64,000 nucleotides of DNA, taken from contig NZ_FOYN01000004.1 of NCBI RefSeq assembly GCF_900111935.1, forward strand, positions 62,001 to 126,000, read 5' to 3'. Each line of letters begins with the position of its first letter. The first letter of the stretch is position 1. Made by a program: the position numbers and the translations under genes. Shown here piece after piece: positions 29,355 through 55,482 of this stretch. The notes beneath the pieces are model-generated. The model made no database searches and was not told the DNA's origin. It saw only the letters and a list, made by a program, of their open reading frames with translations. The DNA comes from Halorubrum sodomense (GTDB taxonomy: Archaea; Halobacteriota; Halobacteria; Halobacteriales; Haloferacaceae).

Positions 29355-29428
29355 GTCCGGGTTAGGGTAGTGGACTATCCTTCAGCCTTGTGGAGGCTGA
29401 GACGCGGGTTCGATTCTCGCACCCGGAC
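29355..29428 (+). tRNA. tRNA-His (GTG anticodon)
   Basis: 74 nt. G-1 at 29355 pairs with C73, the identity element of tRNA-His. Acceptor TCCGGGT/ACCCGGA, anticodon stem CAGCC/GGCTG with loop TTGTGGA (anticodon GTG), and T arm GCGGG-TTCGATT-CTCGC. The D stem is weaker, with a G-U pair and one mismatch. CCA is not encoded. It forms the left border of the lower-G+C accessory island. Confidence 0.93.
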
Positions 29429-29467
29429 CTAAGCTTCTAACGCCCGAATTCGGCACTTTAGATTTGG

Positions 29468-33450: not shown

Positions 33451-33452
33451 CT

Positions 33453-34076: not shown

Positions 34077-34086
34077 CTACTAATCC

Positions 34087-36963: not shown

Positions 36964-39900
36964 CACTCCACGATGTCTCGTGGCGACCGGTGTATGAGAG
37001 TGGCTTCGGCCGCGACGAGACGTTGATGGACGCGTTCTATCGACCCTTCCTTAGTGAGGTTGTTCGGTATGACCGTCTCGCAGGCTACTTGAGCCTCCGC
37101 AGTCTCGCCAATGCTCTCGAAGGCGTCGACTCACTATTAGAAACCGAGGGTCAAGTACGTGTCATCGCTGGAGCCGACCTACAGGAACGCGAAAAAGGTG
37201 CCCTGTTCCCCGACAGCGACGAACCACTCTCACCGTGGGTCGAGTCCCAACTCGCCATCATTGGAACGCTACTTGACCGGGGAGACCTCGAAATCCGAGT
37301 CGGTGACCCTGCTCCCGGTGGCGGGATATTCCACCCGAAGCTTGGTATCGGAATCGACGATGCTGAGGAGCCGAACAAGCTATCTTTTGAGGGTAGCGTC
37401 AACGAGACGTTGAGTGCGTGGCAACACAACTACGAGCGGTTCAAGGTCCACCGCTCGTGGATGGACGGCGAGCGCAAGTACGTCGAAGAAGATGTTAACA
37501 CCTTCCAGCGGCTCTGGGAGGATTCTCACCCCTCTGTCGATGTGTACGAGCTCGACGAGGCTGCCCAGCAAGATATCATCGACTGGACGGAAACAGACCG
37601 CGACCTCGACCAACACGTCGAACGCGTTCGCGAACACTCACCCGAAGCGATAGTCTCGGAAACTGCCGCTGGGGAAGTTGTCGCCGCCGCCGGGCGCACC
37701 CCGGGTGGACTACACCTTGCCGAAGATATCAGTACGCTCGAACAGATATGGCCCCATCAGCGGACGATTTCCGACACGGCAGTTTCCATCTACCCGAACA
37801 ATCTCCTATTCTGTGACGAGGTCGGACTGGGGAAGACCATCGAAATCGGATTGACGCTCTCTCGACTCGTACACACCGGTCAGGTTGAGAATGCGCTCCT
37901 GCTCGTCCCGGCTGGATTGGTACAGCAGTGGCAGGACGAGCTGCTCAACCGATTCAATATCCACGCTTACTACCACGACAGGGCGTACGACGGGGACTAT
38001 CTCGTCGGGCCATTCGGTGGTCCAAGCGACCATCGAGTCAAGCTGGATGGCTGGCGGCAAGCTGATACGTGGAGCAATACCCCTATTGGAGGGTACGTCC
38101 GTGACCGCGACGAGCCGAGCGTCATTATCCAGTCGTGGCATACCGCTCGTCGGGAGAACAACCAGCCCCACGTCGCTCCTAAGCGCGATGACACACTCTG
38201 GGACCTCACGGTCGTCGACGAGGCCCACAGCGCACGAGAGGAGACACAGCTATACGACCTACTCACTAGAGTCGAATCGGTCTCGGAATGTCTCTACGCT
38301 CTCACAGCGACCCCGATGCAGCTGAACGTGGGAGAGCTGTACGACCTACTTCGGTTGGTCGACCTCCCTGAATCGTGGGACGACAAAGAACAGTTCGAGG
38401 AGTTCTTCGAAACGCGCCGAGTGCTTGAAGAGAGCCTCGATGAAGTGGACACGGGCTCTCCGGGGTCGGCCCTTGCCGAACAGACAGTTCTTGATTCTGT
38501 CCGGAAAGAACTGGAGCTCAGCGATGACAAGGAAGGAAAGCAGCTCGCTCAGAGCCGCATCGAAACGTTCGCCGAGATGCTCCACGACCACATCGACGCC
38601 CATCTCGGCTACGACGGCCGAGCACAGGAGGTCGTGGACAGCACCGACTCGCTTGGACTGAAACAGCGCAAGTCGCTTGAAAAGTTGGTTGGACTCAGAG
38701 AGACATCCTCGCGGTTCGACAACCCCCGCCGTCTTGCGTTCGACTGTGGCGTCGAAGGCTGGGAAGCACTCGTTGAGGCGGCCGAATGGGCGACACCCGT
38801 CCAGTCCCGCATCTTCCGGAACACTCGGTCGGTCTTGGAACAGTGTAAGGAACTGGGTCTGTTAGAAGACACCGTCCCAAAGCGGTCAGTCGAGACGAAG
38901 CGAATCGACCTCGGAGAGGCAAAGCCGCTGTACGACCGGGTCGAAGACTACATCGACGACACCTACGAGGCATCGCAGAAGGCTCTCACCGGAAAAGAGA
39001 AGCTCGCACTTGGATTCGTGATGACGACCTACCGTCAGAGGCTCACGAGCAGTCTCTACGCTATCAAGGAGAGCCTCGGCCGCCGCATCGACAAACTGGA
39101 CGAAGAAGTTGAGGATATGACCGAGGAGGTTTCGCAGCTCAGTCAGGATACGGGAGTAACTGAAGCGACGATTGACGAGGTCGTCGGGCAGACATCGCTT
39201 GACGCGTACCGGCCGACCGGGGACCTGAGCATCGTAAGCCGTGAGCTCGAAGAACTCCGTGACTTCATTGACGAACTAAACCGTGCAATCACCGACCCGA
39301 AGATTGTCCACCTGCGGAACGACATCAAGAGCCTCCGACAGGACGCTCGTGACAACATTGTCATCTTCACTCAGTATCAGGATACCCTTGACCACATTCG
39401 ACACACACTGACCGATACACACCCGAATGTCGGCACCTACAGCGGGTCGGGTGGAAGTCGGTACGACGCTGAGACTAACTCGTGGGAAATAGTTGGGAAA
39501 GAAACAATCAAGCAGGAATTCACCAGCACGGGTGGGACGAATATCCTAATCTGTACGGACAGCGCGAGTGAAGGGCTAAATCTTCAGACAGCAGACGCCC
39601 TCATCAACTACGACTTGCCGTGGAATCCGATGCGCGTTGAGCAGCGTATCGGTCGTATCGACCGAATCGGACAGACCAATCCAGTAGTCAAAATCATCAA
39701 CTACGCCTACGAGGATAGCGTCGACGGTGACATCTACGAAGAGTTAGAGAAGCGGCTTGACCTCTTCGAGGACGTTGTTGGGCCGATGCGTCCCGTTCTT
39801 AACAGTCTTGAAAGCGACATCAAGACCGCGGTCATGGACGATAACTTCGGAGATACGGGCGAACAGATAACTGAACAAGCCGAGGAGCGCGCCGAGGCGG

Positions 39901-40595
39901 CTCAAAGAGAAGCGGAAAATGCAGGCCTTGACGAGGATGAGGAAGAAGAGGTAACGCGAGAATCGCTCATACGTAATTCAGGACTGATTGGTTGGGGTGA
40001 TACTCACCATCCAGCCTTAGAGGGTGTCGGCCAGCGTAACCGTCCATATGAGCCAACCGTGAGTCTTGAACTAATGGAGACTCTTCTCACACAGAGCCGA
40101 GAATTAGACGCAGCTGGCTGGGAATTCACTGCGCTACGGAACCACGACCGGGCTGATGAGTATCCCGGAACAGCTAGAGGTGCGTACGTTCTGGAGGGGC
40201 CTGAGGAGATAGACGTTGAAATCCCCGAAAGCGCAACTGCGACTGCGCAGGCTGAGCTCCGGAATGGAGATGACGTGGTGGTTACGTTTGACCCTCCAGT
40301 TGCGGAGGAATTCCCATCTATCCGTCTGCTGCTTCCGGGTGACCCACTCTTTGATGCGCTTGTTTCTACCACGGCCCAAGCTAGTAGTGGTGATATCGTC
40401 TTTGTCTGTGGATACGGTGAGAAGGAGGGGTCTGAACGTGTTGTGGCAGAGTCAACATACGAGGCAACCGACGAAGCGACTGTGGTCTTACCGGCTGTTG
40501 ATGACGATGGGCCTGCTGATTTACCGGAAGGAACGTCCCTACTCAGCGTCTCCGAGGCGAAGAGGACCGTTCGTGATTGGTTGGAGTTAAACTAG
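36960..40595 (+). CDS. PLD nuclease-SNF2-like helicase fusion
   Basis: 1211 residues. Residues 1-190 are a phospholipase-D-like domain with 'FHPKLGIGI' (H-x-K near 124) and 'GSVNETLSAW' near 144. The SF2/SNF2 helicase follows: motif I 'CDEVGLGKTIEIG' near 288, DEAH box 'VVDEAHSAR' near 420, motif III 'LTATPMQ', and motif VI 'EQRIGRIDRIGQ' near 900. A coiled-coil-like insert sits near 690-790 and an acidic segment near 990. Resembles the helicase of DISARM/Hma-type systems. It could translocate on foreign DNA and cut it with the PLD part. Confidence 0.88.
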   Translation: MTLHDVSWRPVYESGFGRDETLMDAFYRPFLSEVVRYDRLAGYLSLRSLANALEGVDSLLETEGQVRVIAGADLQEREKGALFPDSDEPLSPWVESQLAIIGTLLDRGDLEIRVGDPAPGGGIFHPKLGIGIDDAEEPNKLSFEGSVNETLSAWQHNYERFKVHRSWMDGERKYVEEDVNTFQRLWEDSHPSVDVYELDEAAQQDIIDWTETDRDLDQHVERVREHSPEAIVSETAAGEVVAAAGRTPGGLHLAEDISTLEQIWPHQRTISDTAVSIYPNNLLFCDEVGLGKTIEIGLTLSRLVHTGQVENALLLVPAGLVQQWQDELLNRFNIHAYYHDRAYDGDYLVGPFGGPSDHRVKLDGWRQADTWSNTPIGGYVRDRDEPSVIIQSWHTARRENNQPHVAPKRDDTLWDLTVVDEAHSAREETQLYDLLTRVESVSECLYALTATPMQLNVGELYDLLRLVDLPESWDDKEQFEEFFETRRVLEESLDEVDTGSPGSALAEQTVLDSVRKELELSDDKEGKQLAQSRIETFAEMLHDHIDAHLGYDGRAQEVVDSTDSLGLKQRKSLEKLVGLRETSSRFDNPRRLAFDCGVEGWEALVEAAEWATPVQSRIFRNTRSVLEQCKELGLLEDTVPKRSVETKRIDLGEAKPLYDRVEDYIDDTYEASQKALTGKEKLALGFVMTTYRQRLTSSLYAIKESLGRRIDKLDEEVEDMTEEVSQLSQDTGVTEATIDEVVGQTSLDAYRPTGDLSIVSRELEELRDFIDELNRAITDPKIVHLRNDIKSLRQDARDNIVIFTQYQDTLDHIRHTLTDTHPNVGTYSGSGGSRYDAETNSWEIVGKETIKQEFTSTGGTNILICTDSASEGLNLQTADALINYDLPWNPMRVEQRIGRIDRIGQTNPVVKIINYAYEDSVDGDIYEELEKRLDLFEDVVGPMRPVLNSLESDIKTAVMDDNFGDTGEQITEQAEERAEAAQREAENAGLDEDEEEEVTRESLIRNSGLIGWGDTHHPALEGVGQRNRPYEPTVSLELMETLLTQSRELDAAGWEFTALRNHDRADEYPGTARGAYVLEGPEEIDVEIPESATATAQAELRNGDDVVVTFDPPVAEEFPSIRLLLPGDPLFDALVSTTAQASSGDIVFVCGYGEKEGSERVVAESTYEATDEATVVLPAVDDDGPADLPEGTSLLSVSEAKRTVRDWLELN

Positions 40596-40644: not shown

Positions 40645-42057
40645 TCAACAAATAGTGAGTAGCAACCATAATGGAATAACGCTGAAATCCTCTGTAACAC
40701 TCCAGTCCGTGTCCCGGGTTATGACGACGCCATGTTCGGCATCAAACTCTTGCATAAATCGACGCAGCGATTGTTTAGCGTCTTCCTCGCTTCGAGTGAA
40801 CGCAAGGGCGAACGGCAGAGGAGCTCCCTCCGTCGAGACGATATGGTCTACAGTCGCCGCTGTTTTCTCCCAGTACGGAACCGGTTCATCGCCTCCGTTA
40901 TAGTAGTATGAAAGCCGCTTGAGGTGGTCGAAAATACTGACCGTTACAAGTCGACGCTCGTCCTCCACATCCAGTATCGAATCCGGAGAGATTTCAGATA
41001 GTGCGACGATGTACTGTGGGTCACGTGGTTGTAGACGGACTGTCCGCCGTCGCTGGTGCTTGTACTGATACGCTGGCGTTACGATGAAGAAATCACGGAG
41101 GACATCGAGATATCGCTGGAGTGTGCGACGGTCGCAGTCCAGTCGGTCGCTAAGCTCCGTGAGCTGGAATGTCTCACCCGGTGAGGTGGCACTGATTGCG
41201 CACAGCGCGTGTAAGTCGCTTCGCTGCTCGAACTGCTGGAACCGTGGGATATCTCGGTAGACGGTCAGCTCCAAGTTACGGGCCACTTCTGACGCTTGAT
41301 TTTCCGCCCGCCCTCCTCTCGTGATATAGTGTCGAACTCGTCGCTTGATATCGCGCTCGGCCCCCTCAAGGCTCTTGGACAAATCGGATAATGAACTCGA
41401 AAGTTCCGCAGGGTCACCGTCGGTAGTTGCTCGTTTTAGCGATTGCCGGACGTCGTATCGCGTGTCGCCCACTTCGAGTAACTCGTCCGGGGCGGAGTCG
41501 TTCCGGATAGAGTCGTAGAACTTCTGCGGAAGGATGATTTCGTCAAAATCCTCGGCCTCGGGCTGAAACTCTTCGAGCAAGCCGAAGTCGGCTTGGTCGA
41601 TGGTTGGTAAGGAGACGGCGACTGTCAGGTCCGAGTATGAATCGAGTGCGGAAGCGACTTGCCGTGCCCAATCGGGGCTGGCGTGTACATCGTCAATGAA
41701 CACGTATGCCTCATCTTCTTTCCCCTGTTCTGCCCGTACATACGTCGTAAACTCTTCGATGGACTCTGCTATCACTCCAGAGCCAATCTGATACTGTGGA
41801 TTCCCCAGTGGCAGGTATAGGACGTTTCGTGGATGCGTGTCGTGCTCAGAAACGAGGCTATCAATAATTTGGTGTATAATCGTCGTCTTCCCGATACCGG
41901 CAGGCCCCGCGTACGCCACGAAACGGTTTTCAAGCACCGCGTCCCGCTTATATGTGAAATCAGAACGCTGTCTCGACACGTACGGTTCTGCGCTCTCAGC
42001 CGTTCCTGACTCCCACCACGGATTGTGGTTCTGTTGGAGGTCGTCTAACGCGCTCAT
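40645..42057 (-). CDS. AAA ATPase with C-terminal wHTH (AAA_14/DUF4143-like)
   Basis: 470 residues on the opposite strand to both neighbouring operons. Walker A 'GPAGIGKTTI' at 51-60 and Walker B 'AYVFIDDVHASPDW' at 117-130 define the P loop. After about residue 290, 'QLTELSDRLDCDRRTLQRYLDVLRDFFIV' is a helix-turn-helix as in the AAA_14/DUF4143 group, followed by a nuclease-like alpha/beta tail ending 'SVIPLWLLLTIC'. Such proteins are frequent in archaeal defence islands without assigned role. It may be independent of both operons. It ends 49 nt from the helicase stop. Confidence 0.75.
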   Translation of the reverse strand: MSALDDLQQNHNPWWESGTAESAEPYVSRQRSDFTYKRDAVLENRFVAYAGPAGIGKTTIIHQIIDSLVSEHDTHPRNVLYLPLGNPQYQIGSGVIAESIEEFTTYVRAEQGKEDEAYVFIDDVHASPDWARQVASALDSYSDLTVAVSLPTIDQADFGLLEEFQPEAEDFDEIILPQKFYDSIRNDSAPDELLEVGDTRYDVRQSLKRATTDGDPAELSSSLSDLSKSLEGAERDIKRRVRHYITRGGRAENQASEVARNLELTVYRDIPRFQQFEQRSDLHALCAISATSPGETFQLTELSDRLDCDRRTLQRYLDVLRDFFIVTPAYQYKHQRRRTVRLQPRDPQYIVALSEISPDSILDVEDERRLVTVSIFDHLKRLSYYYNGGDEPVPYWEKTAATVDHIVSTEGAPLPFALAFTRSEEDAKQSLRRFMQEFDAEHGVVITRDTDWSVTEDFSVIPLWLLLTIC

Positions 42058-42308: not shown

Positions 42309-43499
42309 ATGACGACCCGTGTCCTCCACGTCAGCGATACCCACCTTGGGTATCAACAGTATCGTAGCGAACAACGACGTCGAGACTTTTTCGCAGCGTT
42401 TCAGCAAGTCATCGACATTGCTACGGGTCAGCATCCTGACCATGATGTTGGGCCCGTCGATGCCGTCCTTCACACGGGTGACCTGTTTGATGACCAGCGG
42501 ACGAGTTTCGATGACATATTCTACTGCCAGCAGGCACTCGCCGAACTCGCTGAAGCCGATATACCATTCTACATCATCGTCGGAGACCACGAGCAGCGGC
42601 GAGGAATCGACTTCGTTGAGGTTTACGAGTCTGCTGGGCTCGCGGAACGACTCGAACGTGAACCCACCGAGCTGGAGGACGTTGCCCTCTATGGTATCGA
42701 CGCTGTGCGCGACCGGGAGTGGGAGACGGCAGAGTTCTCGCTCGCAGAGCCGACTGATGAGTCACTTCTTCGAGTCGTCGCGATGCACGAGTTCTTTTCG
42801 CCACCAGAGGACTCGTACCCGCACGCGTATGAGCTTGAGCCCGCCATCGACCGATTCGGAATCGATATCGATGGCGTGGCACTCGGAGATGTCCACGAAC
42901 GACAGAGTGCCAATTGTAACGGCATCCCAGTTTGGTATCCGGGGTCCACGGAGCGGAACAAGCGAGACGAACGTCCCAACCGGTCGGTGGACCTCCTGAC
43001 ATTCGACGTTGATGCCGAGACCGAATTCCAGCGTGACCGCGTCGTCTTGGACACACGGCCGTTCGTCGGGGTTGAGGTCGACTTCGGACGTGGCGATGGA
43101 TTCGAGCTGGTCGAAGAACGCGTCGCCGATTCTGGACCGGTTGAGGGAACTGTGACCTTCGTTGACCTCGATGGAGAGGATAACAGCGTCACCAAGAGAC
43201 AGGTCATCGAGTATCTCCGCGACAAGAACGTCGTCAAGGCCAAGGTCACCGATGAACGGGCGACCCCTGACTTCGAGGACGAGATAGCAGAGGGAGGTGC
43301 CGACATATCGGTCGACCCGGCCATCGCAGGAGCCGTCGATGAACTGAATCTGAGTGGTCCGGCGGCGTCTCTCGAACGAGTCGCTCGGGACCTCGACACC
43401 GGTCCGACCAAAGTCGAGGGGGAAGCAGCAGACTTGCTGGGTGACCTCGTCAGGGATGAATTCGAGGGAGACAGCTACTTCGAGGAGGGTCAGACATGA
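42309..43499 (+). CDS. Mre11-like metallophosphoesterase
   Basis: 396 residues. Calcineurin-like motifs: 'SDTHLGYQQYR' at 9-19, 'HTGDLFDD' at 55-62, 'IVGDHEQ' at 90-96 (GNHD in most relatives) and 'LGDVHERQ' near 193, plus 'MHEFF' near 160. A capping domain and a Rad50-binding C-terminal tail follow. Mre11 proteins are Mn-dependent DNA exo/endonucleases working with Rad50. It opens a five-gene operon; its TGA overlaps the Rad50-like ATG. This looks like an accessory paralogue because it sits in a defence island with HerA and NurA. Confidence 0.88.
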   Translation: MTTRVLHVSDTHLGYQQYRSEQRRRDFFAAFQQVIDIATGQHPDHDVGPVDAVLHTGDLFDDQRTSFDDIFYCQQALAELAEADIPFYIIVGDHEQRRGIDFVEVYESAGLAERLEREPTELEDVALYGIDAVRDREWETAEFSLAEPTDESLLRVVAMHEFFSPPEDSYPHAYELEPAIDRFGIDIDGVALGDVHERQSANCNGIPVWYPGSTERNKRDERPNRSVDLLTFDVDAETEFQRDRVVLDTRPFVGVEVDFGRGDGFELVEERVADSGPVEGTVTFVDLDGEDNSVTKRQVIEYLRDKNVVKAKVTDERATPDFEDEIAEGGADISVDPAIAGAVDELNLSGPAASLERVARDLDTGPTKVEGEAADLLGDLVRDEFEGDSYFEEGQT

Positions 43500-46400
43500 A
43501 ATTCGAGAAGCTTCGACTCAAGAACTTCCAATCGTACGACCAAGCGGCTATCGAGTTCGAGGACGGCCTCACGCTCGTTCACGGCGACAACGGGGCGGGG
43601 AAGACGACGCTTATCCGCGCTATCTATATGGCTCTGTTTCAGGGGCAGGCGAAGTCTGAGATTGGGACCGGGTACGAACTCCTTGACTTCATCAAGGACG
43701 GCGAGGAGGAGGCTGAGGTTGAACTCACCTTCCGCTACGAGGGGGACCCATACACCGTGACGTGGGTGATTGCCAAACAGGAAGGTGACGACGGACCCGT
43801 CGGACGGACACGGTCCAACCGCACGACTCTGAGCAGTCCAGCACTCGACACCGAATATAGTGGTCCGAGTGACGTCCGAGATGTCATAGAGGATTTACTC
43901 GATATGGACGCAGAGGCGTACGCGAACAGTACGTACGCCCAGCAAGCCCGACTCACGCGGCTCATCGAAGCCACGGACAGCCAGCGTGAGTCCATTCTGG
44001 ACAACCTCCTCGGACTTGATGCGCCGGAGACGTATGCTGACAGACTTGGTGACGTCACATCGCCCATCGAGGACTTCCAAGAAGACCTACAGGCGCGACG
44101 GCGACAGCTCTCGGACGAGATTAGCGATGTCGACGAAAGCGAATTACAGAGCGAACTTCAGTCGCTTCAAGAGACTATTGGCGACCTACAGGAACGAGAG
44201 GGCGAACTCGACGAGGCCGTGGCAGATGCCCAAGAGCAGGTTCAGAAACTCGACCAACGTATCGACGAGTACCGTGAGGCCAAGGAGCGACAGGGAGAGT
44301 TGGAAGACAAAATTCGGGACAAGAAGGAGCGTATCAGGGAGCTTCGCGGGGAGATAGATGACTGTCAGGCTACCATCAACGAGTGCGAGGAGGTCATCGA
44401 GAGGAAACGAGAGCGACTACAGGAGCTTAACGAAGACGTCCCCGAATACGACCTGACCGACGAGAGTGAAGCGGCCGAAGCACTCAACGAGTTCGAGACG
44501 GCTCGGGAAGAGGCCGCGGCAGCGGTCGAGAGAAAGGCGGCGGCTGTCGACCAAGCCCGGAATGAAGTCTCCCGCCTAGAGGAGGAACTCGATAGCCACC
44601 GAGATGAGCTTCGGACCGCCTGTCTTGACCACAAGCAGAAGCTCGACACGGTCGCCGACGCACGAGACGAAGCCGAACAGGCGAAAGATGAGCTATCTGA
44701 ACGGGAGGCCGAGCGTGATGAAGCCGCTGGTGAGTTCCTCGACACGGCGATATCGGAGGTCGAAGACATCGGCGACGCTGTGGACGCTAAACGGGAGTCA
44801 CTCGATAAGCGACGGCAAGACCTCGAACTGGAGGAGAACGAACTGGAACAGAAGCAAGAGCAGGCCGAGACGGACATCGCGCGCATCGAACGTGAGCTGG
44901 AGACTGCCCGTGAGGAGCGTCAGACTATCCGGGAACGGCTCGATACCGACGTTGACGACCCGGAAACAGCGTTTGAGGAGGCACTCAGTCGCGCTGACGA
45001 CCTCGGTGACGGATTCGATATAGACGTTGCTCCTGAGACCCTCGACAGTACCCTCACCGGAGAACTCCCAGAAACACGTAGCGAGGTCCTCGACGAACTG
45101 GCTGATGCGTTCGATGACGAGCTGTCAGGGTGTATCGAGCAGGCTCGGGCCGAAACGCGCATAGAAGACCTCGAAGCTCTGGAAGGCGGCGAGTGGCCCA
45201 TCGATGGCGGAGATATCGGAGCAACACACGACTACTCCGATGCGCTCGATGACCTCCGCCGCGTCGTCGAAGAAAGCGAGCAAGCGACTGATTCCGCCTC
45301 GAAGGCACAAGAAGACGCCCGGTCACAACTCACTACACTCGACGAGCTGACTGAGTGCCTCCTGACCGCCGCCAGCTTCCGTGCGCTTGCCGGTGTCACA
45401 GCTGACATTGAGGCATACGAGAGTGAGCTAGAAGAGCGGAAGAGGGACAGGGACGAACTAGCCGAGCAACTCACCGGAGTTCGGGAGGAACTCGACACAG
45501 TCCGTCAACAGTTGCGGACTGGGGAATCGGTCGCCGAAGCTGTTGAGCGCGCAGAGGGAGCCGCGGAGAAGCTTCAGAATAGAAGGGAGGAGCTCCATAA
45601 TGCCGAGGAGGCGGCGGACGATGTGGTCGAAGAGATTAGCGAGGCGGCAGACGCCGTCGGTGAAAAACATGACGAGCTGTCTGAAGCCCGTGAAGAACTG
45701 GAAGGCGCAATCGACGACCACGAGAAAGCTGAGACGACGCTCGAATCTAAGGAGGCAAACGAACGAATAGCTGACAAAGCAGTCGAGTGTCACGAATCCA
45801 TTAGCGACCGTGAGGGAGAGAAAGAGACCCAGCGGGAAGCCATCGAGACCCGGGAAGGGCAGATAGACGACCTGCAATCAGACGTTGCGAGTTTTCAGGA
45901 CGACCTCACCGACGCAGAGGAGGTAACCGAGGGGACTTCTCTTGATGAGCTACAGGAGCAGAACGCGAAAGCCGAGAAACTGAGGCAACAGGTCGAGACT
46001 GAACGCGCAAATGTCCGGGAGGAGATTCGAGAAAAAGACCGGAAGCAGGAACGAGTCGAGCAAAACCTCGAAGACCTGCGTGAGAGGCGCGCAACCATCC
46101 AGTCGCTCGACGAGAAGGCGGAATGGGCCGAGGATATCGAGAACGAGCTCACTGGGGTCGAAGCGACCTACGAAGAGGTCCAGACCGAGATGCGGAACCG
46201 GGTGCTGGGCCGACTCAACAAGTACGCGAACGACATCTTCGGCGACCTCTACCAGAGTGAGTCGTACAACGGCCTCCGTATCGGCGAGGACTACAGTTTG
46301 GAGCTAATCCGAGCCGATGACACGACCCGTGACCCAAAGAAGGCCAGCGGTGGGGAATCTGTTCTCGCAACCATCGCGCTCCGGGCCGCGGTCTACCACG

Positions 46401-46684
46401 TCTTGGCCGACCAACACGCCGAAGGGGGTGAAGGTCTCCCGCCGTTGGTGCTCGACGAGCCAACGAGCCACCTCGATGACACGCACGTCGACCAAATCGA
46501 GGGCGTCATCGAGAACATACAGACGTGGGATGTTCCGCAGGTCATCGTCGTCAGCCACCGAAATGGCCTCGTCCACGACGCACCACACGAGATAGAAGTG
46601 ACGAAAGATGAAGCGACCGACACGTCGACCCTCAACCCTGACTACACCAGTAGTCACTGTGACGAAGCCGCGGGTGATGACTAA
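43496..46684 (+). CDS. Rad50-like SMC-type ATPase without zinc hook
   Basis: 1062 residues. Walker A 'VHGDNGAGKTTLIRAIYMALF' near 28-48, then long heptad coiled coils from about 190 to 490 and 590 to 890. C-terminal ABC signature 'KASGGESVLATIALRAA' lies near 948 and Walker B 'LVLDEPTSHLDDTH' near 984. Cys residues are few and no CxxC exists anywhere. The apex (about 490-600) is a non-coil segment instead of a zinc hook. With Mre11 it should tether or sense DNA ends. It overlaps both neighbours by 1-4 nt. Confidence 0.9.
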   Translation: MKFEKLRLKNFQSYDQAAIEFEDGLTLVHGDNGAGKTTLIRAIYMALFQGQAKSEIGTGYELLDFIKDGEEEAEVELTFRYEGDPYTVTWVIAKQEGDDGPVGRTRSNRTTLSSPALDTEYSGPSDVRDVIEDLLDMDAEAYANSTYAQQARLTRLIEATDSQRESILDNLLGLDAPETYADRLGDVTSPIEDFQEDLQARRRQLSDEISDVDESELQSELQSLQETIGDLQEREGELDEAVADAQEQVQKLDQRIDEYREAKERQGELEDKIRDKKERIRELRGEIDDCQATINECEEVIERKRERLQELNEDVPEYDLTDESEAAEALNEFETAREEAAAAVERKAAAVDQARNEVSRLEEELDSHRDELRTACLDHKQKLDTVADARDEAEQAKDELSEREAERDEAAGEFLDTAISEVEDIGDAVDAKRESLDKRRQDLELEENELEQKQEQAETDIARIERELETAREERQTIRERLDTDVDDPETAFEEALSRADDLGDGFDIDVAPETLDSTLTGELPETRSEVLDELADAFDDELSGCIEQARAETRIEDLEALEGGEWPIDGGDIGATHDYSDALDDLRRVVEESEQATDSASKAQEDARSQLTTLDELTECLLTAASFRALAGVTADIEAYESELEERKRDRDELAEQLTGVREELDTVRQQLRTGESVAEAVERAEGAAEKLQNRREELHNAEEAADDVVEEISEAADAVGEKHDELSEAREELEGAIDDHEKAETTLESKEANERIADKAVECHESISDREGEKETQREAIETREGQIDDLQSDVASFQDDLTDAEEVTEGTSLDELQEQNAKAEKLRQQVETERANVREEIREKDRKQERVEQNLEDLRERRATIQSLDEKAEWAEDIENELTGVEATYEEVQTEMRNRVLGRLNKYANDIFGDLYQSESYNGLRIGEDYSLELIRADDTTRDPKKASGGESVLATIALRAAVYHVLADQHAEGGEGLPPLVLDEPTSHLDDTHVDQIEGVIENIQTWDVPQVIVVSHRNGLVHDAPHEIEVTKDEATDTSTLNPDYTSSHCDEAAGDD

Positions 46685-47964
46685 TGGTCGGACACTCAGA
46701 CTTCGAGGCTCTTGAGGCGATATTCGAACACATCGCCGAGACCGTCGCCGATGAGGAAGATGGACAGAGTGCTCGCGACATCTTCCGTGAATGGATAGGG
46801 ACAGACGGTGGGGAAATCACTGTACTTGATTCGCCCGAAGTCTACCGCCGCTCGGAGTCAGAGCTGGTCCAGTACCGTGGACGCTTCGATAGTTGGTACG
46901 GGATAGACGCCAGTACGGTGCGCCCACAAGACTTCCAAAACGGGCTCATCACGAGTGCTGCGACCGCCATCTGTGCGATGCTCGGTGATGGTGACACAGC
47001 GATTGAGGCCGAGCGGTCAATCGTCGGAGCGGTCTACTGTGATATTGACGGGGTAGAGTTCTCGGAGCAGGAGTTACAGGCCGGCGACGTGATGGTCGAA
47101 CTCGAAACCGTTCGAGCGACTGTCTCACCCCGGGAACTGCGTCGCTGGGTCGGAGCCACGGCCCGAGTCCCGGCAGAGTGCCGACACAGCGAGCGCGTAG
47201 CCGACCGAATCGACGGTCCGCTCTTCTTGGATGGGAGTCTCTACCCTATGTCAGTCCTCCCGAACGTACAGTTCGCACGGGCAATCAATCAACAACGGTC
47301 GACGAGTCAACTGGTTGAGACAGAACAGCTGGGAACGGCTGCGAAGGCGATTCAGTCTCGGGTGAATGCGATTGGGACCCTAATGGAGCGTGACCTACCG
47401 GTGGTCGGTATCGTCAAAACCATTAGCACGAGTCGGGTGGTCGATGCTCTCCGACAAAAGGTTCGGACGAGCGAAAACCCTCCGCTCCTCCCATGGGCTG
47501 AGGACTCGCAGTTCCTCGCCGATGTGCTGTACCACGATGAGCCGCGGCAATTCTCATTTACTTCGTGGCTGGTTCGGACGCACCGCGACCCCGGAGCCCG
47601 AGGCGAACAGGTTGAGCCACTTGGCGGGTTCGACATTCCCGCTGGGTACGAGCCGGCTGACTTCAGACGGGCGTTCTTTTTCGTCCGACTCCCACGAGGT
47701 ATCGTCTTCCGTGTGGAGGCACCATACGGCCAAGTCGATACCCCCTCGAAGCGCGCAGAGATGCAGATGTTTGCGCTTGGTGCCATCGCTGAGGCCAACG
47801 GTGCCCCGATGGTCGTTGACCGGGCCGACGAACTTGCCCGGGTTCCCAACGACGTTCGGGACTACCTCACAGATGTTCTGGACATCACTGAACCGGTACA
47901 AGACTACAACCGCGACGAACGGTTCGATTTCGACTTCGACTCCAACGACACCCATTACGCATAA
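46684..47964 (+). CDS. NurA-domain nuclease
   Basis: 426 residues. NurA motifs are visible: 'WYGIDASTVRPQDF' near 72 with the first metal Asp, 'GPLFLDGSLYPMS' near 179 with the second Asp, and 'SKRAEMQMFALGAIAEANGAPMVVD' near 355. NurA is a Mn-dependent 5'-3' nuclease forming a dimer that docks on the HerA hexamer. The ATG overlaps the last base of the Rad50-like stop codon (TAATG). The following gene is HerA, which supports the assignment. Confidence 0.87.
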   Translation: MVGHSDFEALEAIFEHIAETVADEEDGQSARDIFREWIGTDGGEITVLDSPEVYRRSESELVQYRGRFDSWYGIDASTVRPQDFQNGLITSAATAICAMLGDGDTAIEAERSIVGAVYCDIDGVEFSEQELQAGDVMVELETVRATVSPRELRRWVGATARVPAECRHSERVADRIDGPLFLDGSLYPMSVLPNVQFARAINQQRSTSQLVETEQLGTAAKAIQSRVNAIGTLMERDLPVVGIVKTISTSRVVDALRQKVRTSENPPLLPWAEDSQFLADVLYHDEPRQFSFTSWLVRTHRDPGARGEQVEPLGGFDIPAGYEPADFRRAFFFVRLPRGIVFRVEAPYGQVDTPSKRAEMQMFALGAIAEANGAPMVVDRADELARVPNDVRDYLTDVLDITEPVQDYNRDERFDFDFDSNDTHYA

Positions 47965-47966
47965 TC

Positions 47967-49778
47967 ATGAGTGACTCAGACGAATTCGACGACTTCGAAG
48001 ACCGAATCGAGAATGTCCTCGACAGCGAGGCCGGCGAGAGTATCCCGACTACGCCGGAGTCAACAGACAACGCGATGCCCACAACGGCGGATGGAACTCC
48101 GCTGGGGCACATCACGGCCAGTGAAGGACTGGACATCAGCCGCGGCGACAGTACGATTCACAGCTACATCCGGAGTGACACCAGAGACGAACTCCGACTG
48201 GGCGACTTTATCCAAGTCCCGTACCCGAATCGTCCCGATGACCCGCATTCAGAGTTACTGGGAGAAGTGACCCGCATTGGGTACGAACAGAGAGCAGACA
48301 TCGACGATAAGTCGGATGTCCGACGGGGGATTCAGGATACGACCATCGACGAGCGACAGTACGTACAGGTGGCAGACGTTGACCCAATCGCTATCGTTGA
48401 GGGCACGGACCCAGATGACCTGACTCGGACAACAGTTGACCGAGTTCTCAAGCCGTTCACGCTGGTGTACGAGGCGAGTGATGAGGCGTTCCTCCGTACC
48501 GGACTGAATCTGCCGGCTGAAGGGCCCTACATCGGAGACCTCGCTGTCAGCGGCGAGCCCCATCCGCCAGACGACCCGCTCGCTTACCGTCTGCCGACGG
48601 TACAGGGTACGCCGGCCATCTGGACACATATGCTGATTGCAGGGGCGACCGACGCCGGGAAGACATTCACCACAAAAAACATCCTACGCCAACTGGCGAC
48701 GGACACAGGCTACGAAGTCGAAGTTCGGACTGATGACGGTGATGCCGAAACGCGTGAGCGGCCCCTCGGTATCGTCGTCATCGACCCAGAGAACGAATAC
48801 AGCGGGCTGGGCGATGACCCCGACCTCTCAGACGACGTATGGTCCGACTTGGAAAGTCGCGGCATTGAGGTTGGAGGCATCGACACGCCGAATTGCGGCT
48901 CCCACGACCTTCAGACCTACGTCCCTGTTGCTGACGGGATTTCCACACCAGCAATCGACGGAGCACGCGAGTTTGGAATCCCCTTCGAGTTGGTCGAGAA
49001 CCGTCCAGAGCTGGTGATGGGCTACAAACCACCTAGTGCCACGGAGAACGCTATCAAGGAGTGTATCGGGACGTACTTCGACGGTCCCGGTGCGTCCAAT
49101 CCCTCCTACGAAGAGTATCTCCGCTTCCTCCGTAACAACGGGGACCAACTACAAGCCCAACACAACATAGCTTCCCAGTCGTGGGATGCGATGATGAGCC
49201 GCGTCGACAGCGGTGTGTTCCATCAGGTGTTCGACTCCGGCACCCACCAGATGACCGAAATCACGAACGAGCTGTTCAGGCCCGGTCGCGTTACCGTCAT
49301 CCCGACGAGACATCTCATCGGTGGCGAGGAAGCAGACCGTGGCACGCTCGTTGTGATGGCACTCCTCTCGTACATCGTACAAAACAAGCTCGGCGGGAAC
49401 GACCCTGACCCGAACGTCGACGAAACTCCCCTCATGCTTGTGGTTGACGAAGCTCACGAGTACCTGAGCGGAGCGGACTCTCTACACGAACGTGAGGTCG
49501 TCTCTCGATTTCGCCGCATCGCCAAGCGCGGCCGCAAGTACGGTCTGGGACTGTGTATGATTACGCAGGACCCGAGTGATATTGACGGGGAGATTCTCGG
49601 GCAGACCAGAACCGGTCTGTATCTGGAGATGGAGAGCGACGCAGACCTCTCCTCGGTTCCTGCCGGGTACGAGGACGACGTAATCAAGTTCGAACAGGGG
49701 CAGGGCGTCATCGAGTCTCCCGGGGTTCGCCCGACCGAAATCAGGACGTTGGGGTACTGTACGGTGAACCATGACTGA
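47967..49778 (+). CDS. HerA-like DNA translocase
   Basis: 603 residues. An N-terminal HAS-barrel-like part (about 85-200) precedes the FtsK/HerA ATPase core. Walker A 'IAGATDAGKTFTTKNILR' lies near 224, 'VVIDPENEYSG' near 270 and Walker B 'LMLVVDEAHEYLSGAD' near 489, followed by 'RFRRIAKRGRKYGLGLCMITQDP'. HerA is a hexameric dsDNA pump that drives NurA through DNA ends. It starts two nt after the NurA stop. An acidic disordered N-terminus of about 60 residues is typical of haloarchaeal proteins. Confidence 0.9.
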   Translation: MSDSDEFDDFEDRIENVLDSEAGESIPTTPESTDNAMPTTADGTPLGHITASEGLDISRGDSTIHSYIRSDTRDELRLGDFIQVPYPNRPDDPHSELLGEVTRIGYEQRADIDDKSDVRRGIQDTTIDERQYVQVADVDPIAIVEGTDPDDLTRTTVDRVLKPFTLVYEASDEAFLRTGLNLPAEGPYIGDLAVSGEPHPPDDPLAYRLPTVQGTPAIWTHMLIAGATDAGKTFTTKNILRQLATDTGYEVEVRTDDGDAETRERPLGIVVIDPENEYSGLGDDPDLSDDVWSDLESRGIEVGGIDTPNCGSHDLQTYVPVADGISTPAIDGAREFGIPFELVENRPELVMGYKPPSATENAIKECIGTYFDGPGASNPSYEEYLRFLRNNGDQLQAQHNIASQSWDAMMSRVDSGVFHQVFDSGTHQMTEITNELFRPGRVTVIPTRHLIGGEEADRGTLVVMALLSYIVQNKLGGNDPDPNVDETPLMLVVDEAHEYLSGADSLHEREVVSRFRRIAKRGRKYGLGLCMITQDPSDIDGEILGQTRTGLYLEMESDADLSSVPAGYEDDVIKFEQGQGVIESPGVRPTEIRTLGYCTVNHD

Positions 49779-49827
49779 CAGCCAGCCCGTTCCGGTCATC
49801 AGGGACGTTTCTCTGTATAGGGGGTGA
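49771..49827 (+). CDS. 18-residue bridging ORF between herA and the PLD gene
   Basis: ATG 49771 lies inside the HerA stop region (ATGACTGA) and its TGA 49825-49827 overlaps the next ATG (TGATG). Peptide MTDSQPVPVIRDVSLYRG. It may serve only to carry ribosomes from HerA to the PLD/ATPase gene. Whether the peptide itself acts is unknown. Confidence 0.3.
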   Translation: MTDSQPVPVIRDVSLYRG

Positions 49828-51788
49828 TGAGAGACATGAGCGACACTACCGCATCAGATGACCTCTCCGCGTTTCAACTGATTCGTAGCTATGAGTCGTT
49901 CGAGAAATACTTCACCGACGCTGTCCGCGTCCGGGCGGTTACGTACTGTACCTCGCCGAAGGTTCTGCTTGAACTGTTTGAGGAGTACAACGTGGACGAG
50001 ATGGAGGTGGTCGTCGGGGAGAAGACAGACTTTCGGGAAGAAATCAAGTCAGTCGGAGTTGCACGGAAGTTGGAGCAGTTCAAACAGGAAGGAGACCTGC
50101 GGATATTCCTCGCTCCAGACCGGGACCTCCATTCGAAACTCTACATCATCGAGTATCCAGACGGAGAGGCTACCATCCTCAACGGGTCACCGAATTTTAC
50201 CGAGACGGCGTGGTCAAGCTACTACCAAATCAATCTGGTCGACGAGTTCCACACCGAGATTGGTAGTTCAAGATTCGAGGAAGCAATCGACGCGTATCAC
50301 ACACATTTGGAGGAGTGTGACGACGAGCCCTTCACCGACTCGTTGACGCAGGCACTTGATGAGGCCGACCCAGAAGAAGATGAAGATGACATCATCGAGC
50401 GGTGGGTAGCCGTCAACGACAGTCCAGATAGAAACGAAACCCGGCAGGTCCACGAGGAGTTCACCGAGGCCATCACTGACCTTGACCCCGACGTTGACTC
50501 GGACGTCACAATCTCTGAAGACCTCGCTAAGTACGAGGAGAAGACGCGTGATGAATTGGAAGATGCCTTCCAGAGCTACGATGCCCAGATAACCGGTACG
50601 TCGATTCGGACACCCCTTAGCGAATACGGACAGGCGGTGAACACGTACTACGACTTCCCAAAGATGGTCGTTGAGGAGGACCGGGTTCGGATGCTTACAC
50701 CGGAAGGCTCTCACATCCAACTTTCAGAACCCGTCCCCAGCCAAGATGTCCTCGATGAAGCACTCTCAAACCTCAAGGCCTACTTCCAGACCGTTGAGAA
50801 CTACGCCAAGACCGATGACACGGAAGCCGCGCAAGCTCATATGTTCGAGGCATTATTGTACTTCTTCTACGCACCGTTCGTGAACCGATTCGCCCGTGCG
50901 TTCGGTGCCGGTGAAGTGAACGGCGTCGAAAAGAGCCTGCCGTTCCTCTACATTCACGGGGAATCGAACGCCGGGAAGGGCACTTTCATCGAGTTTGCGA
51001 TGCGGCTCATTTCGGATAACACGGTCACACAGCCGATTGACGGCGATAGAATCGGGGCTGGACTGCCAGATGCTGCCCGGGAGCCCCAGTCTTCTTTCCC
51101 AGTCGTCCTTGACGACGTTGAACGACAGAAGTTCGACTCGCTAGGTGGACTCCGCAACTACTGGGACGAGTGGGAGAACAACCGGTTCCCGACGTTCGTC
51201 CTGACCAGCAACGAGAACAAGCCCAAGGACTGGTTTATGAACCGGGCCAAGATGGTTCACTTCAAAATGATGTTCGAAGGGACTTCGGAAGCGCGCCTCC
51301 GTGCTCGTGAGATAATCGAGAAGGAGAATCCTCTGTTCAAGTGGTTCGCGCATCGCTTCCTCGCAACGCCATTTGACGTAACCGACCTCCGTGACGAAGA
51401 CTCCAGCCGGGACGACCTACTTGCCCCAGTTCGAGAAGTATTTTTAGAACTGTTCAACGAGTCAGCTCACGACGTGCCAGACTATTTCCCACGGAAGCCA
51501 GCCGAGTGGGAGTATGATATTGGCCGTGACCGGTGGTTGGAGGCGTATGAAAGCGATTACTTCACTCTCTCTACGCAGCGGGGCCGTATTGTTGCATCCT
51601 TTGACGAGACGTTCTCTAGCTATGAGATTGATGACACTTATCTGAGGAATCTTCCTCAGCACATTCGTGCAAAGCGACAACGGAAAGAAATCTACATCAC
51701 GTCGACCAGTGAGTTTGAGACGTGGCTCGGTGTCGGGACTGAGCAGAAGGCTGGATTTCTTGACAGAGTGCGGGGCCTGCTCAGGTGA
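49827..51788 (+). CDS. PLD nuclease fused to SF3/AAA-type ATPase
   Basis: 653 residues from ATG 49827; ATG 49836 after GGGGTGATG is also possible. Residues 10-190 are a single PLD-like nuclease with 'DLHSKLYIIEYPDGEATILNGSPNFTETAW' as H-x-K and GSxN motif at about 100-126. An acidic linker follows. The second half has Walker A 'HGESNAGKGTFIEFAMRL' near 378, Walker B 'SFPVVLDDVERQKF' near 425 and a sensor 'PTFVLTSNENKPKDW' near 458, the spacing of superfamily 3/VirE-type viral helicases. It belongs to the Mre11-Rad50-NurA-HerA operon. Confidence 0.78.
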   Translation: MRDMSDTTASDDLSAFQLIRSYESFEKYFTDAVRVRAVTYCTSPKVLLELFEEYNVDEMEVVVGEKTDFREEIKSVGVARKLEQFKQEGDLRIFLAPDRDLHSKLYIIEYPDGEATILNGSPNFTETAWSSYYQINLVDEFHTEIGSSRFEEAIDAYHTHLEECDDEPFTDSLTQALDEADPEEDEDDIIERWVAVNDSPDRNETRQVHEEFTEAITDLDPDVDSDVTISEDLAKYEEKTRDELEDAFQSYDAQITGTSIRTPLSEYGQAVNTYYDFPKMVVEEDRVRMLTPEGSHIQLSEPVPSQDVLDEALSNLKAYFQTVENYAKTDDTEAAQAHMFEALLYFFYAPFVNRFARAFGAGEVNGVEKSLPFLYIHGESNAGKGTFIEFAMRLISDNTVTQPIDGDRIGAGLPDAAREPQSSFPVVLDDVERQKFDSLGGLRNYWDEWENNRFPTFVLTSNENKPKDWFMNRAKMVHFKMMFEGTSEARLRAREIIEKENPLFKWFAHRFLATPFDVTDLRDEDSSRDDLLAPVREVFLELFNESAHDVPDYFPRKPAEWEYDIGRDRWLEAYESDYFTLSTQRGRIVASFDETFSSYEIDDTYLRNLPQHIRAKRQRKEIYITSTSEFETWLGVGTEQKAGFLDRVRGLLR

Positions 51789-52094: not shown

Positions 52095-52340
52095 ATGACC
52101 CTAAGAGACGAAGCTTGGAGCTCTCTGCTAGAACAGACCGTGATGACACCAAAATTCAAATTAACCGATTTACCGTTCAAAGAGTCGGAAAGGCATACGG
52201 TCCGAAGGTGCCTCCGACAGGCCGAGGAGTTTGGTTGGCTTGAGAGGACCTCTGAGCACTCGGCTATCTGGCGTGCGGGGCCAAAGGCCAAGATGCTGTT
52301 GAATCTCTCTGAGGAGAAGCTCCGGCTCGCAGACGAATGA
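52095..52340 (+). CDS. Small wHTH-like protein
   Basis: 81 residues from ATG 52095 (a TTG lies directly before it). 'FKLTDLPFKESERHTVRRCLRQAEEFGWLERTSEHSAIWRAGP' reads as a winged helix: recognition helix around residues 30-45 and a wing 'SAIWRAG'. It overlaps the next gene by four nt (ATGA). It may be a regulator of, or a partner to, that gene. Confidence 0.6.
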   Translation: MTLRDEAWSSLLEQTVMTPKFKLTDLPFKESERHTVRRCLRQAEEFGWLERTSEHSAIWRAGPKAKMLLNLSEEKLRLADE

Positions 52341-52972
52341 CACAGACGGTCAAGAGTGACGCAGAGATGGCGTTACGCATCCCACCGCCGGGAGGGCGTG
52401 AGAACCGGCGTCTCCAGTATCTCGTTAAGAATGGATATCTTAACCTCGAATCGACGCCAATAGACCTCGCTGAAATCCCGACTCCAGAGTTTGTACGGGC
52501 ACGACGTGCTGTCGCCCGGTCGACGACGCTTTCAGCCCTTCACGCGGACCTCAAGGCAGTCGCGACATGGTATCTCCGACAACAGGGTGCTACAGATATC
52601 ACCTACGAACAACGATACCCAGCTGAGTTCCGCGTCGCCGATGTAGTGTCTACCTCGACTGGACGGTACATCGAGGTCGGGCAAGTCGAGGACATCTCTA
52701 GAATCTACCAGAGCTTCGGTCTCGATATCACGCTTCGAGGGAGTAGCGTCTCTCAAGTAATGAACCGCTACCCGCCTGATGGAGAGGTCCAGCCAATCAG
52801 TGAGCTTATTTCCATTCCATTTCCCACGAGCGACCAGACGAGACGTGCGTGGGAGTTCGATGTGCTGTCGGTATACAGTTACACTCGTGGAGATTGTTCA
52901 CCGCCAGTCAACAACAGGAGGAACCGTTTCTGGAAGGCATCCAGAAGAGACGAGCAGAAAGCAGTTGATTAG
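52337..52972 (+). CDS. Unrecognised protein, possible PD-(D/E)XK-like fold
   Basis: 211 residues. The middle part 'HADLKAVATWYLRQQGATDITYEQRYPAEFRVADVVSTSTGRYIEVGQVED' has the helix-strand-D-strand-E arrangement of restriction-endonuclease-like folds, with D near 97 and E near 108, but the usual ExK Lys is Gly-Gln. It could be an inactive or altered nuclease. The last 25 residues are Arg-rich. It is co-translated with the small wHTH protein. Confidence 0.5.
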   Translation: MTQTVKSDAEMALRIPPPGGRENRRLQYLVKNGYLNLESTPIDLAEIPTPEFVRARRAVARSTTLSALHADLKAVATWYLRQQGATDITYEQRYPAEFRVADVVSTSTGRYIEVGQVEDISRIYQSFGLDITLRGSSVSQVMNRYPPDGEVQPISELISIPFPTSDQTRRAWEFDVLSVYSYTRGDCSPPVNNRRNRFWKASRRDEQKAVD

Positions 52973-53622
52973 CCACGGCGAACAGGACTCTGCTGGTCCG
53001 GAGGTACCGGGCCGTGGTGGGTATCCCAAAGGTCACGCGGCCGAGACGGCTAAGAAGTCGGCTAAGCAAGCATTGACCGGTACGTCTCTTAGTAACCCAC
53101 AATAGACCCAGAGACGCTCGCGGAGCATCTCGGCAAGAGTTTGCTGAACGCCGGGATGAAGAAGGCAAATAGACCGATTTTGACCCAGATAACAGGAGTA
53201 CGAGAAATATCGGTCAATCTCTGATATACGGCTAAGCATAAATCGACCGCTGCCCCCTACTATCCACTGTAGCTGTGTCGGCCCACGTGGCTATAGTTCA
53301 CCTAGTAAGAGAAGCCACGTCTTAGTGGCATACAGCTAAGAGAAACCCCACACAGTAGCAACCAGTCTGATACCCGAAATGCCAAATTCAAGCGTTACAA
53401 TCCTTGAGAGACGGATATTATGAGAGAGCGTTACCGGCCGAAGGTGAAAAATGTTGACTCTCTTCTTTGGCCGAGGAGTGTGACACGTCGAGAAGTGGTT
53501 ACGAACGAGTCAGATGAGGCGAGAGAGGACTCGAATCACGTGTGTGACGGAAATTGGCGTCGAAAAGGGAGAGGTTAGACGATAGCGTCCGCTCAACACC
53601 GGCGGCCCCCGAGAGGGGTAAG
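52973..53622. other. Gene-poor stretch with coding-like fragments
   Basis: Frames such as GYPKGHAAETAKKSAKQAL (plus, about 53016-53072) and, in another frame, DPETLAEHLGKSLLNAGMKK (plus, about 53106-53165) look like pieces of one frameshifted gene. A 52-residue ORF from ATG 53420 to TAG 53578 has no recognisable features. Short repeats of ATACxGCTAAG occur near 53226 and 53330. No intact gene is supported. Confidence 0.35.
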
Positions 53623-55305
53623 TCACTTTCGGAGGTAGATGTCGTCTCTTGAGATGACTCCGTCTCTGACGAGTTCAGGGAGGTCCTCGGGCAGATAGTC
53701 CATCCGGGAGATAGACACCCAGTGTTCCTCAGCGTCCCGGCGTTCGGCTGGAGTAACCACTTCAAGATTGGATGACTCGTCGTCGTCATCTTCGTTCGAC
53801 GCGTCACGTCTTTCGTGTCTGGCGAGAGCTCGATTGCGCACTTCATCCATAACCTTCCCGACGGTTCGTTTCGCGGGCAGGACGAGCTCCCGAAGCACGT
53901 TTCGTGATTCCTTGCACAACGCGACGTACATCTTGTGTGAGCGAACTCGCTTCACGAGATTCAGTTCCTCAAGTTTTCGGACATGGCGACGAACGGTTTC
54001 TTTTGCGAGTCCTGTGTGTTCAACAAGGGCGTCGTATGGAAGGCTGGAGGAACCGTACCGACTGGACGACGAGCGGAAGAGCAGTGTCGCGATGATGTCG
54101 TGAGGAGCCATCGTCTGCCGGTGGAACAGGTGCCCGATGGCAGTATCCCGTATCTGGTCAGACCGGTAGTAGCGGTCCAGACGCGTGAGGTACTCTGTCG
54201 GCAGGGGTGTAGTGACCAGTTCGTGGTCGTCCGGAGTGTAGTGGTCGTCTGTAACGAGGTCGGATGCCTCGACCCCACCCCACGCCAGATAGGCGTGGAG
54301 GATGGTGGTCGCCCGGCGGACGACGGTCTCGAACGCTGGTGCGGGGTACCAGCCGTGAATCTTGACCTCGGACTTCGGATGTGTGAGCGAGTGGCCGGAG
54401 GGGAGGCGAGAGGCCTCAAGATGCTCATAGACTTTGACCACGGCGTCCGAGATATCATCAGTGTATCGCGCTCCCTTGTGCTCAAATTGAATGGTCATGT
54501 CGAACCCGAGGAGACCGAAGTGAGGGCTCTGTAGCCGGTGAAGTAGTCTCTCACCCCGCTCCAGACTGAGGTGCTCTTTACAGTCTTCTTCAGACCAAAC
54601 AAGTAGCCCGGCCGTCTGGTGGATTGTGTCGCTGACCCCGAGGAGCGTCTTGTTATGATGTCTGTGGTACGTCTCAACGCCACCCACGCGAAGGGTCGTG
54701 TATTCGGTTTTTGCGTAAAGTTCTGCGAGTTGGTGGCTGTCGACGAGCGCACCGAGCAACTCGAACGCGCGTCGCCAGATGAGTTCAGGATTGGCCGCGT
54801 ACGTCGACACTATCCGAAGTCGGGTGCCTGCTATGTGGGTTGAACCGTCCCATCCCTTTGCCCACGTGAACGCGTTCCCGTCCGGGTAGACGAGCTCCGA
54901 GCTCCGACGTTCGAGTACGACGCTCACCCGAACCGGATGAGTAGTCTTTCTCCCGGATTCAATCGAGCTGTAGCAGCCGATGTGGAGCTTTTGTGACGAG
55001 TTGTACCCAGCTCCGGTTAGATACCCGCACTGGGAGTTAGACGCGAAGAGCCCAACCTCTACGGGCTGGCTGCTCGTCCAACTGAACGACTGTCGGCTGA
55101 TTCGGTGCGGTGTGTCCTTGTCGGCTGTGACTCCCCGTTGTCTGTCCAACCGTTCCAGAGACTGCGAGACAGTGTCGAATAGGTCGTTGTTGTCGTCGAG
55201 CTGGCCCTGCATCTCGATTCGGTGTAGGGCAGGGGCCGGATATTCGGCAATATCCGTATTCGAGACGGCGATACCTCTATCTACGTTGCTTTCGTTCGTT
55301 CTCAT
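53623..55305 (-). CDS. Large wHTH-containing haloarchaeal mobile-element protein (DUF7845-like)
   Basis: 560 residues. The first 330 residues are an unrecognised mixed alpha/beta domain with many His and Tyr residues ('YHRHHNKTLLGVSDTIHQTAGLLVW'). Near 420-465 'YDALVEHTGLAKETVRRHVRKLEELNLVKRVRSHKMYVAL' is a clear winged helix. An acidic tail follows. The type is known to me from haloarchaeal plasmids and proviruses, perhaps in replication or regulation; the family name is from memory. It stands alone with a long upstream gap. Confidence 0.55.
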   Translation of the reverse strand: MRTNESNVDRGIAVSNTDIAEYPAPALHRIEMQGQLDDNNDLFDTVSQSLERLDRQRGVTADKDTPHRISRQSFSWTSSQPVEVGLFASNSQCGYLTGAGYNSSQKLHIGCYSSIESGRKTTHPVRVSVVLERRSSELVYPDGNAFTWAKGWDGSTHIAGTRLRIVSTYAANPELIWRRAFELLGALVDSHQLAELYAKTEYTTLRVGGVETYHRHHNKTLLGVSDTIHQTAGLLVWSEEDCKEHLSLERGERLLHRLQSPHFGLLGFDMTIQFEHKGARYTDDISDAVVKVYEHLEASRLPSGHSLTHPKSEVKIHGWYPAPAFETVVRRATTILHAYLAWGGVEASDLVTDDHYTPDDHELVTTPLPTEYLTRLDRYYRSDQIRDTAIGHLFHRQTMAPHDIIATLLFRSSSSRYGSSSLPYDALVEHTGLAKETVRRHVRKLEELNLVKRVRSHKMYVALCKESRNVLRELVLPAKRTVGKVMDEVRNRALARHERRDASNEDDDDESSNLEVVTPAERRDAEEHWVSISRMDYLPEDLPELVRDGVISRDDIYLRK

Positions 55306-55482
55306 TGTTGTTGCCTATGCCAAGTGGTTGCGGCCTCGCAACCGCGACGGCGCAGTTCCTGACATACCGCTAGAGAAGCAGGTTCCGACTAAATACATAG
55401 TGTCAGCACGACCGAGAGCGAAAGCCAACATATGCGCCATAAGTGGTCTGAAACACCAGTTTGTTGGAGATTGCCGTTTAGC

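Follow-up and report, generated by a model that had tools for sequence, protein, structure and literature searches.

Within the 64,000-nucleotide stretch of Halorubrum sodomense DNA analyzed here (the window), five large genes encode an Mre11 nuclease, a Rad50 ATPase, a NurA nuclease, a HerA-like translocase, and a protein with PLD nuclease and SF3 ATPase parts (Table 1). All five frames are intact and are spaced by -4, -1, +2, and +45 nt, and the family identities assigned to these close-packed genes in an earlier note, made from the sequence alone, hold. No exact defense-system match for the operon was found in PADLOC or NCBIfam, and the scores obtained are generic. For example, Mre11 reaches 251 bits against NF041030, whose equivalog cut-off is 550, and HerA reaches 46 bits against NCBIfam antiphage families with cut-offs of 800-850. 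The best PADLOC match of Rad50 is LmuB.

Table 1. Features of the locus, in window numbering.
Feature	Position	Strand	Details
tRNA-His (GTG), integration site	29356..29429	+	
attL	29386..29431	+	3′-terminal 44 bp of tRNA-His and the 2 bp after it; perfect direct repeat of 46 bp
Upstream operon	30076-40595		DUF499, DUF7680, DUF1156 methylase (MTase), SNF2 helicase
AAA_14 + DUF4143 ATPase, divergent partner gene	40645..42057	-	
Mre11 nuclease, accessory type A	42309..43499	+	396 aa; NF041030 1.4e-74
Rad50 ATPase, type A	43496..46684	+	1062 aa; NF002572 1.5e-113
NurA nuclease, accessory type A	46684..47964	+	426 aa; PF09376 5e-8
HerA-like translocase	47967..49778	+	603 aa; PADLOC HerA 1.3e-23
PLD nuclease + SF3 ATPase, AgaP family	49824..51788	+	654 aa
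attR	71313-71358 (outside window)		second copy of the 46-bp direct repeat

The five genes had been described as lying directly after a DUF499/DUF1156/helicase operon. That operon is real, but the description left out the divergent AAA_14/DUF4143 gene (hereafter AAA14) that sits between the two. This gene is kept in all five loci of the type defined below, as well as in most of the Argonaute/AgaP loci examined, and its predicted structure (pLDDT 85) has many matches among STAND and AAA ATPases, all with low TM-scores, so no particular role is assigned to it. Judged by sequence comparison, AAA14 belongs to the five-gene unit. The resulting set of six is found again, in unchanged order and at 34-58% identity, in other genera, and therefore the arrangement is not a product of chance. 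The genes 3′ of the PLD gene (52337-58769) were considered as further members and rejected; they are conserved in none of the fetched loci.

The operon upstream of AAA14 gives matches to Hma-type and NCBIfam antiphage families, the latter with scores well short of the equivalog cut-offs. An operon of this kind adjoins the AAA14 gene of Argonaute/AgaP-type units in the window and in two further loci, L045 and L046 (first 5.9 kb). It stands apart as an operon and encodes a methylase, an ATPase, and a helicase of its own.

The G+C content drops from 0.70 to 0.55 directly after the tRNA-His gene, in agreement with the lower-G+C island noticed previously. The two copies of the 46-bp repeat bound 41.9 kb of DNA that includes the operon, and a tyrosine integrase gene (69678-70844) adjoins attR. 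In addition, a congeneric genome (G026) carries an exact empty site, where tRNA-His is followed directly by the sequence that flanks attR here. The unit is carried by a site-specific mobile element. A PDDEXK_5 endonuclease gene (60793-61227, reverse strand) also lies inside this element. Just beyond attR is a TnpB/OrfB gene of the IS605 type (L079:7831-9066, or 71831-73066 in window numbering), and extended synteny with G026 starts again at 73066, after this gene.

The earlier note had suggested looking for a second, housekeeping mre11-rad50 pair in the same genome. Such a pair is present: an Mre11 that scores 630 bits, over the cut-off, adjoins a Rad50 elsewhere in the genome, and there is a second NurA as well. 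In the NurA and Mre11 trees, the window copies fall in a clade of five members (support 100/100 and 100/99), which we call type A and which comprises the window, G241, G082, G278, and G060. This clade is separate from the housekeeping Mre11 and from a commoner accessory type B. A core phylogeny lacking island association was looked for, and what was found instead is a distinct, strongly supported clade whose window copy resides in a mobile element. Neither of these two checks refuted the proposal of the note. Type A was detected in 5 of the 391 haloarchaeal genomes, and counting type B as well brings the total to 43; G278 was scored as the same genus as the source genome. A HerA scan of named genomes yielded at least two loci, in Halopenitus persicus and Halorubrum sp. 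Hd13. Neighborhood genes were called with a simple custom ORF scorer and with profile HMMs built for this analysis.

Two side observations concern relatives of these genes. A core NurA gene is present in 383 of the 391 haloarchaeal genomes (for example, G000:C9:839475-840449 and L152:9292-10605), and the Pfam NurA model also matches in Haloferax volcanii, a species from which a 2020 review describes both HerA and NurA as absent (PMC7776575). Separately, a subgroup of type-B mre11-rad50-nurA-herA operons (L118, L126, L127, and L131) is followed by a gene for an OLD/AriA/GajA-like ATPase of ~638 amino acids, possibly another defense pairing.

The type-A Rad50 proteins share an unusual feature. 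The CxxC motif is absent from all five, and it is present in all 41 other copies examined, including the housekeeping one. In the alignment, WP(L/I)DGG falls exactly on CPxCGQ; in the window protein the replacement reads WPIDGG, at about residue 567. A longer motif, WPxDGGxxGxxHDY, is kept in the five proteins even though the other four share just 36-38% identity with the window copy, in which Walker A, the signature motif, and Walker B are intact. The alignment indicates that type-A Rad50 has lost or replaced its zinc hook. The window Mre11 is also atypical, reading GDHE instead of GNHE at its metal-site motif. This N-to-D change is unique among 41 copies with a recognizable motif: GNH is found in 39 of the other 40, and one diverged paralog carries T.

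In the AlphaFold (AF2) model of the PLD-SF3 protein (mean pLDDT 83.5), the N-terminal part matches the PLD folds of SauUSI, NgoAVII, and Tdp1, and the C-terminal part matches the SF3 helicase SV40 large T antigen. The protein is probably a ring ATPase that carries a nuclease. It aligns over its full length, at 31% identity, with a Natrinema pellirubrum protein (record NC_019963) whose H105, K107, G157, S158, and N160 are exactly as published for AgaP (PMC11442185). On the strength of this alignment, we assign the PLD-SF3 protein to the AgaP family. Its motifs comprise HSK at residues 103-105, GSPN at 121-124, Walker A at 379, and the Walker B residue D431. Across 28 members of the family, H103, K105, S122, N124, the GK of Walker A, and D431 do not vary. 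Part of the family has GKD in place of GKG at the Walker lysine, and therefore ATPase activity may vary.

Relatives of PLD-SF3 occur in 96 of 391 haloarchaeal genomes. The nearest (51% identity) is encoded by G057, a genome that likewise lacks an Argonaute, so this branch may work without one. In the available passages of Cheng et al. 2024 (PMC11442185), the pair of AgaP and its Argonaute restricts plasmids and contributes to immunity against a halovirus, and AgaP by itself is toxic to H. hispanica; these passages describe an N-terminal PLD domain and do not discuss the SF3 part. Given this toxicity and the lack of an Argonaute here, the window protein would have to be restrained by another factor. 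As a separate observation, five loci (L047, L049, L052, L073, and L074) combine an AgaP-family PLD gene with AddAB and an MrfA/Hrq1-like helicase, again without Argonaute, and three of them (L047, L049, and L052) also contain JAB and E1/ThiF genes. This layout is another Argonaute-less variant.

All five type-A loci begin with the divergent AAA14 gene followed by mre11-rad50-nurA-herA, and four of them are followed, within about 6 kb, by a long Argonaute gene. After herA, G241 carries PLD and an Argonaute (757 aa), and G082 carries PLD, DUF2797, and an Argonaute (916 aa). G278 and G060 carry DUF2797 and an Argonaute but no PLD, and the Argonaute frame of G060 is split in two. In alignment, the Argonautes at type-A loci keep the D-E-D-D of active long Argonautes. 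In the source genome of the window, no Argonaute was found with the Pfam Piwi model or with a nine-sequence profile that detected the Argonautes of G241, G082, G278, and G060 in the same search. The window unit also lacks DUF2797.

A separate lineage, type C, has the order PLD-mre11-rad50-nurA-h207-herA in G134, G333, and G222. In G140, an Argonaute gene lies upstream of PLD in the same run of genes, and Argonaute or Piwi-like genes adjoin the type-C machine in G150, G275, and G334. Because PLD served to locate type C, the linkage of the two is subject to ascertainment. Because its gene order and enzymes differ from those of type A, it suggests a second, separate joining of PLD with end-resection genes. 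Among type-B loci, two or three have an Argonaute alongside (G268 and G003, with G064 by distance only).

Defense islands group unrelated systems, which inflates adjacency statistics. An accessory nurA gene lies within 20 kb of an Argonaute gene in 8 genomes, compared to ~0.06 pairs expected from random placement, a null that is too easy because defense genes cluster; shared gene order and overlaps carry more weight. An end-processing machine occurs within about 10 kb of Argonaute in 27 of the 37 genomes with an examinable Argonaute locus, and such Argonaute counts are lower bounds because the Pfam Piwi model missed the G241 Argonaute and the weak Piwi proteins of type-C loci. The 27 include 16 AddAB-type machines (13 of them a single closely related layout and not independent), 8 accessory Mre11-Rad50-NurA(-HerA) machines, and 3 cases of another Mre11-Rad50 pair. 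We rejected the idea that AddAB is specific to Argonaute: 132 of the 391 genomes have AddA relatives, and the accessory lineage is only partly at Argonaute loci.

Among known systems, APAP of N. pellirubrum, which pairs a long-A Argonaute with AgaP (PMC11442185), shares with the window the same full-length PLD family with catalytic HxK and GSxN, a divergent AAA14 gene usually nearby, and, in the sister loci of the window, a linked Argonaute. However, APAP has the Argonaute in its operon, and the window and its genome lack any Piwi gene. The available passages of the APAP report mention just a neighboring helicase gene, whereas the window has the complete Mre11-Rad50-NurA-HerA machine. In addition, AgaP has a split HxK(x)~49GSxN motif and the window protein a compact HSK(x)15GSPN. 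The split motif is a subgroup trait, because compact spacing is also seen in family members linked to Argonaute, L040, L053, and L055 among them.

The mre11-rad50-nurA-herA operon of thermophilic archaea brings the same four enzymes together. In contrast, the window unit is accessory, mobile, and found beside housekeeping Mre11-Rad50, and it has a hookless Rad50 and an added PLD-SF3 gene. HerA-SIR2 and HerA-DUF4297 pairs likewise join a HerA-family ATPase to one or more nucleases in a defense setting. In the window, the partner is NurA, accompanied by Mre11-Rad50 and PLD-SF3, and neither a SIR2 nor a DUF4297 partner was found in the operon. Lamassu and Wadjet also couple a Rad50-like ATPase sensor to nucleases, but the window protein is a genuine archaeal Rad50 accompanied by Mre11, and the unit has neither an LmuA effector nor a kleisin; a scan of the neighboring genes gave no match to LmuA. 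In the accessible parts of the open-licence literature searched (PMC2743648, PMC6299218, PMC11442185, and papers on HerA and NurA), no Argonaute linked to Mre11-Rad50-NurA-HerA was found. The statement that no system with exactly this composition has been described therefore holds for these papers, but the relatives of the unit include Argonaute and it is not a free-standing novelty.

We favor, with some reserve, the reading that AAA14 and the mre11-rad50-nurA-herA-PLD/SF3 operon form a mobile anti-plasmid or anti-virus module, in which an end-resection machine is combined with an AgaP-type nuclease and no Argonaute. It is most readily understood as a variant, lacking Argonaute, within a broader Argonaute/AgaP family. 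Defense is the best reading because of the recurrent joining to AgaP and Argonaute, the mobility of the unit, its patchy spread, and its defense neighbors; against it stand the absent Argonaute, the N-to-D change in the Mre11 metal site, and the rarity of type A.

We infer for the unit a defense activity, the formation of a complex, a supply of guides, and an order of steps that might run as follows. The dedicated hookless Rad50-Mre11 would bind invading DNA at ends or breaks, HerA-NurA would translocate on this DNA and resect it, and the AgaP-type PLD-SF3 protein would cut the DNA thus exposed. At sister loci with Argonaute in the same operon, resection would yield natural precursors of guides; where Argonaute is missing, as in the window, the module would act without guides. 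The earlier note had proposed an anti-virus or anti-plasmid complex that loads on foreign DNA ends and degrades them. Membership of PLD-SF3 in the AgaP family strengthens the first part of that proposal, but the loading and degradation steps stay conjectural.

The main rival is that the locus is a remnant of an Argonaute/AgaP system in which Argonaute has been lost, Mre11 is decaying, and immunity is gone. Such a history would account for a genome with no Piwi gene in a search that recovered four known positives, when four of five type-A loci have an Argonaute; DUF2797 is missing too, and GDHE replaces GNHE in Mre11. Nevertheless, the five frames are all intact and still overlapping, the motifs of Rad50, NurA, HerA, and PLD-SF3 are kept, and the nearest PLD relative likewise comes from a genome without Argonaute. 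Thus, we consider decay of this kind unlikely, although it deserves serious attention.

That the module lies in an element with an integrase gene and exact att sites raises another prospect, in which it serves the element itself through replication, recombination, or exclusion of competing elements, rather than the host. SF3 ATPases are indeed typical replication helicases of viruses and plasmids. We judge this quite improbable, given that chromosomal and plasmid contexts of many kinds harbor relatives of PLD and of the cassette, that neither was found in scans of INPHARED phages and IMG/VR, and that the PLD family has a link to Argonaute, which is a host-defense protein. It would be more surprising still if the genes formed an accessory repair operon for better break repair or resistance to radiation. 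Mre11, Rad50, NurA, and HerA are classic end-resection proteins that are linked in thermophilic archaea, according to the available part of one report (PMC2288612). However, housekeeping Mre11-Rad50 and a second NurA are already present, the distribution is patchy, and the genes are linked to Argonaute, AgaP, and other defense genes.

If the defense reading is correct, the module may bear on a broader matter, as the source of the small DNA guides used by archaeal and bacterial Argonautes is unsettled. General repair nucleases such as RecBCD shape Argonaute guide loading in E. coli (PMC10269773), and it would be consistent with this role if fragments produced by the resection machine served as guides where Argonaute is present. 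We tentatively speculate that haloarchaeal Argonaute systems bring their own end-resection machine, either Mre11-Rad50-NurA-HerA or AddAB, with which invader DNA is converted to guides, and that the branch with hookless Rad50 and an AgaP-type nuclease has lost Argonaute and turned into an immune complex that degrades ends without guides. An operon-like layout that includes an AgaP-family nuclease is common to two distinct Mre11-Rad50-NurA-HerA lineages. Together with the recurrence of such machines near Argonaute, this opens guide supply to tests with defined sets of genes in the genetically tractable Haloarcula hispanica. The unit may reveal where such Argonautes obtain DNA guides, and how repair enzymes, including a Rad50 with a replaced zinc hook, are reused for immunity.
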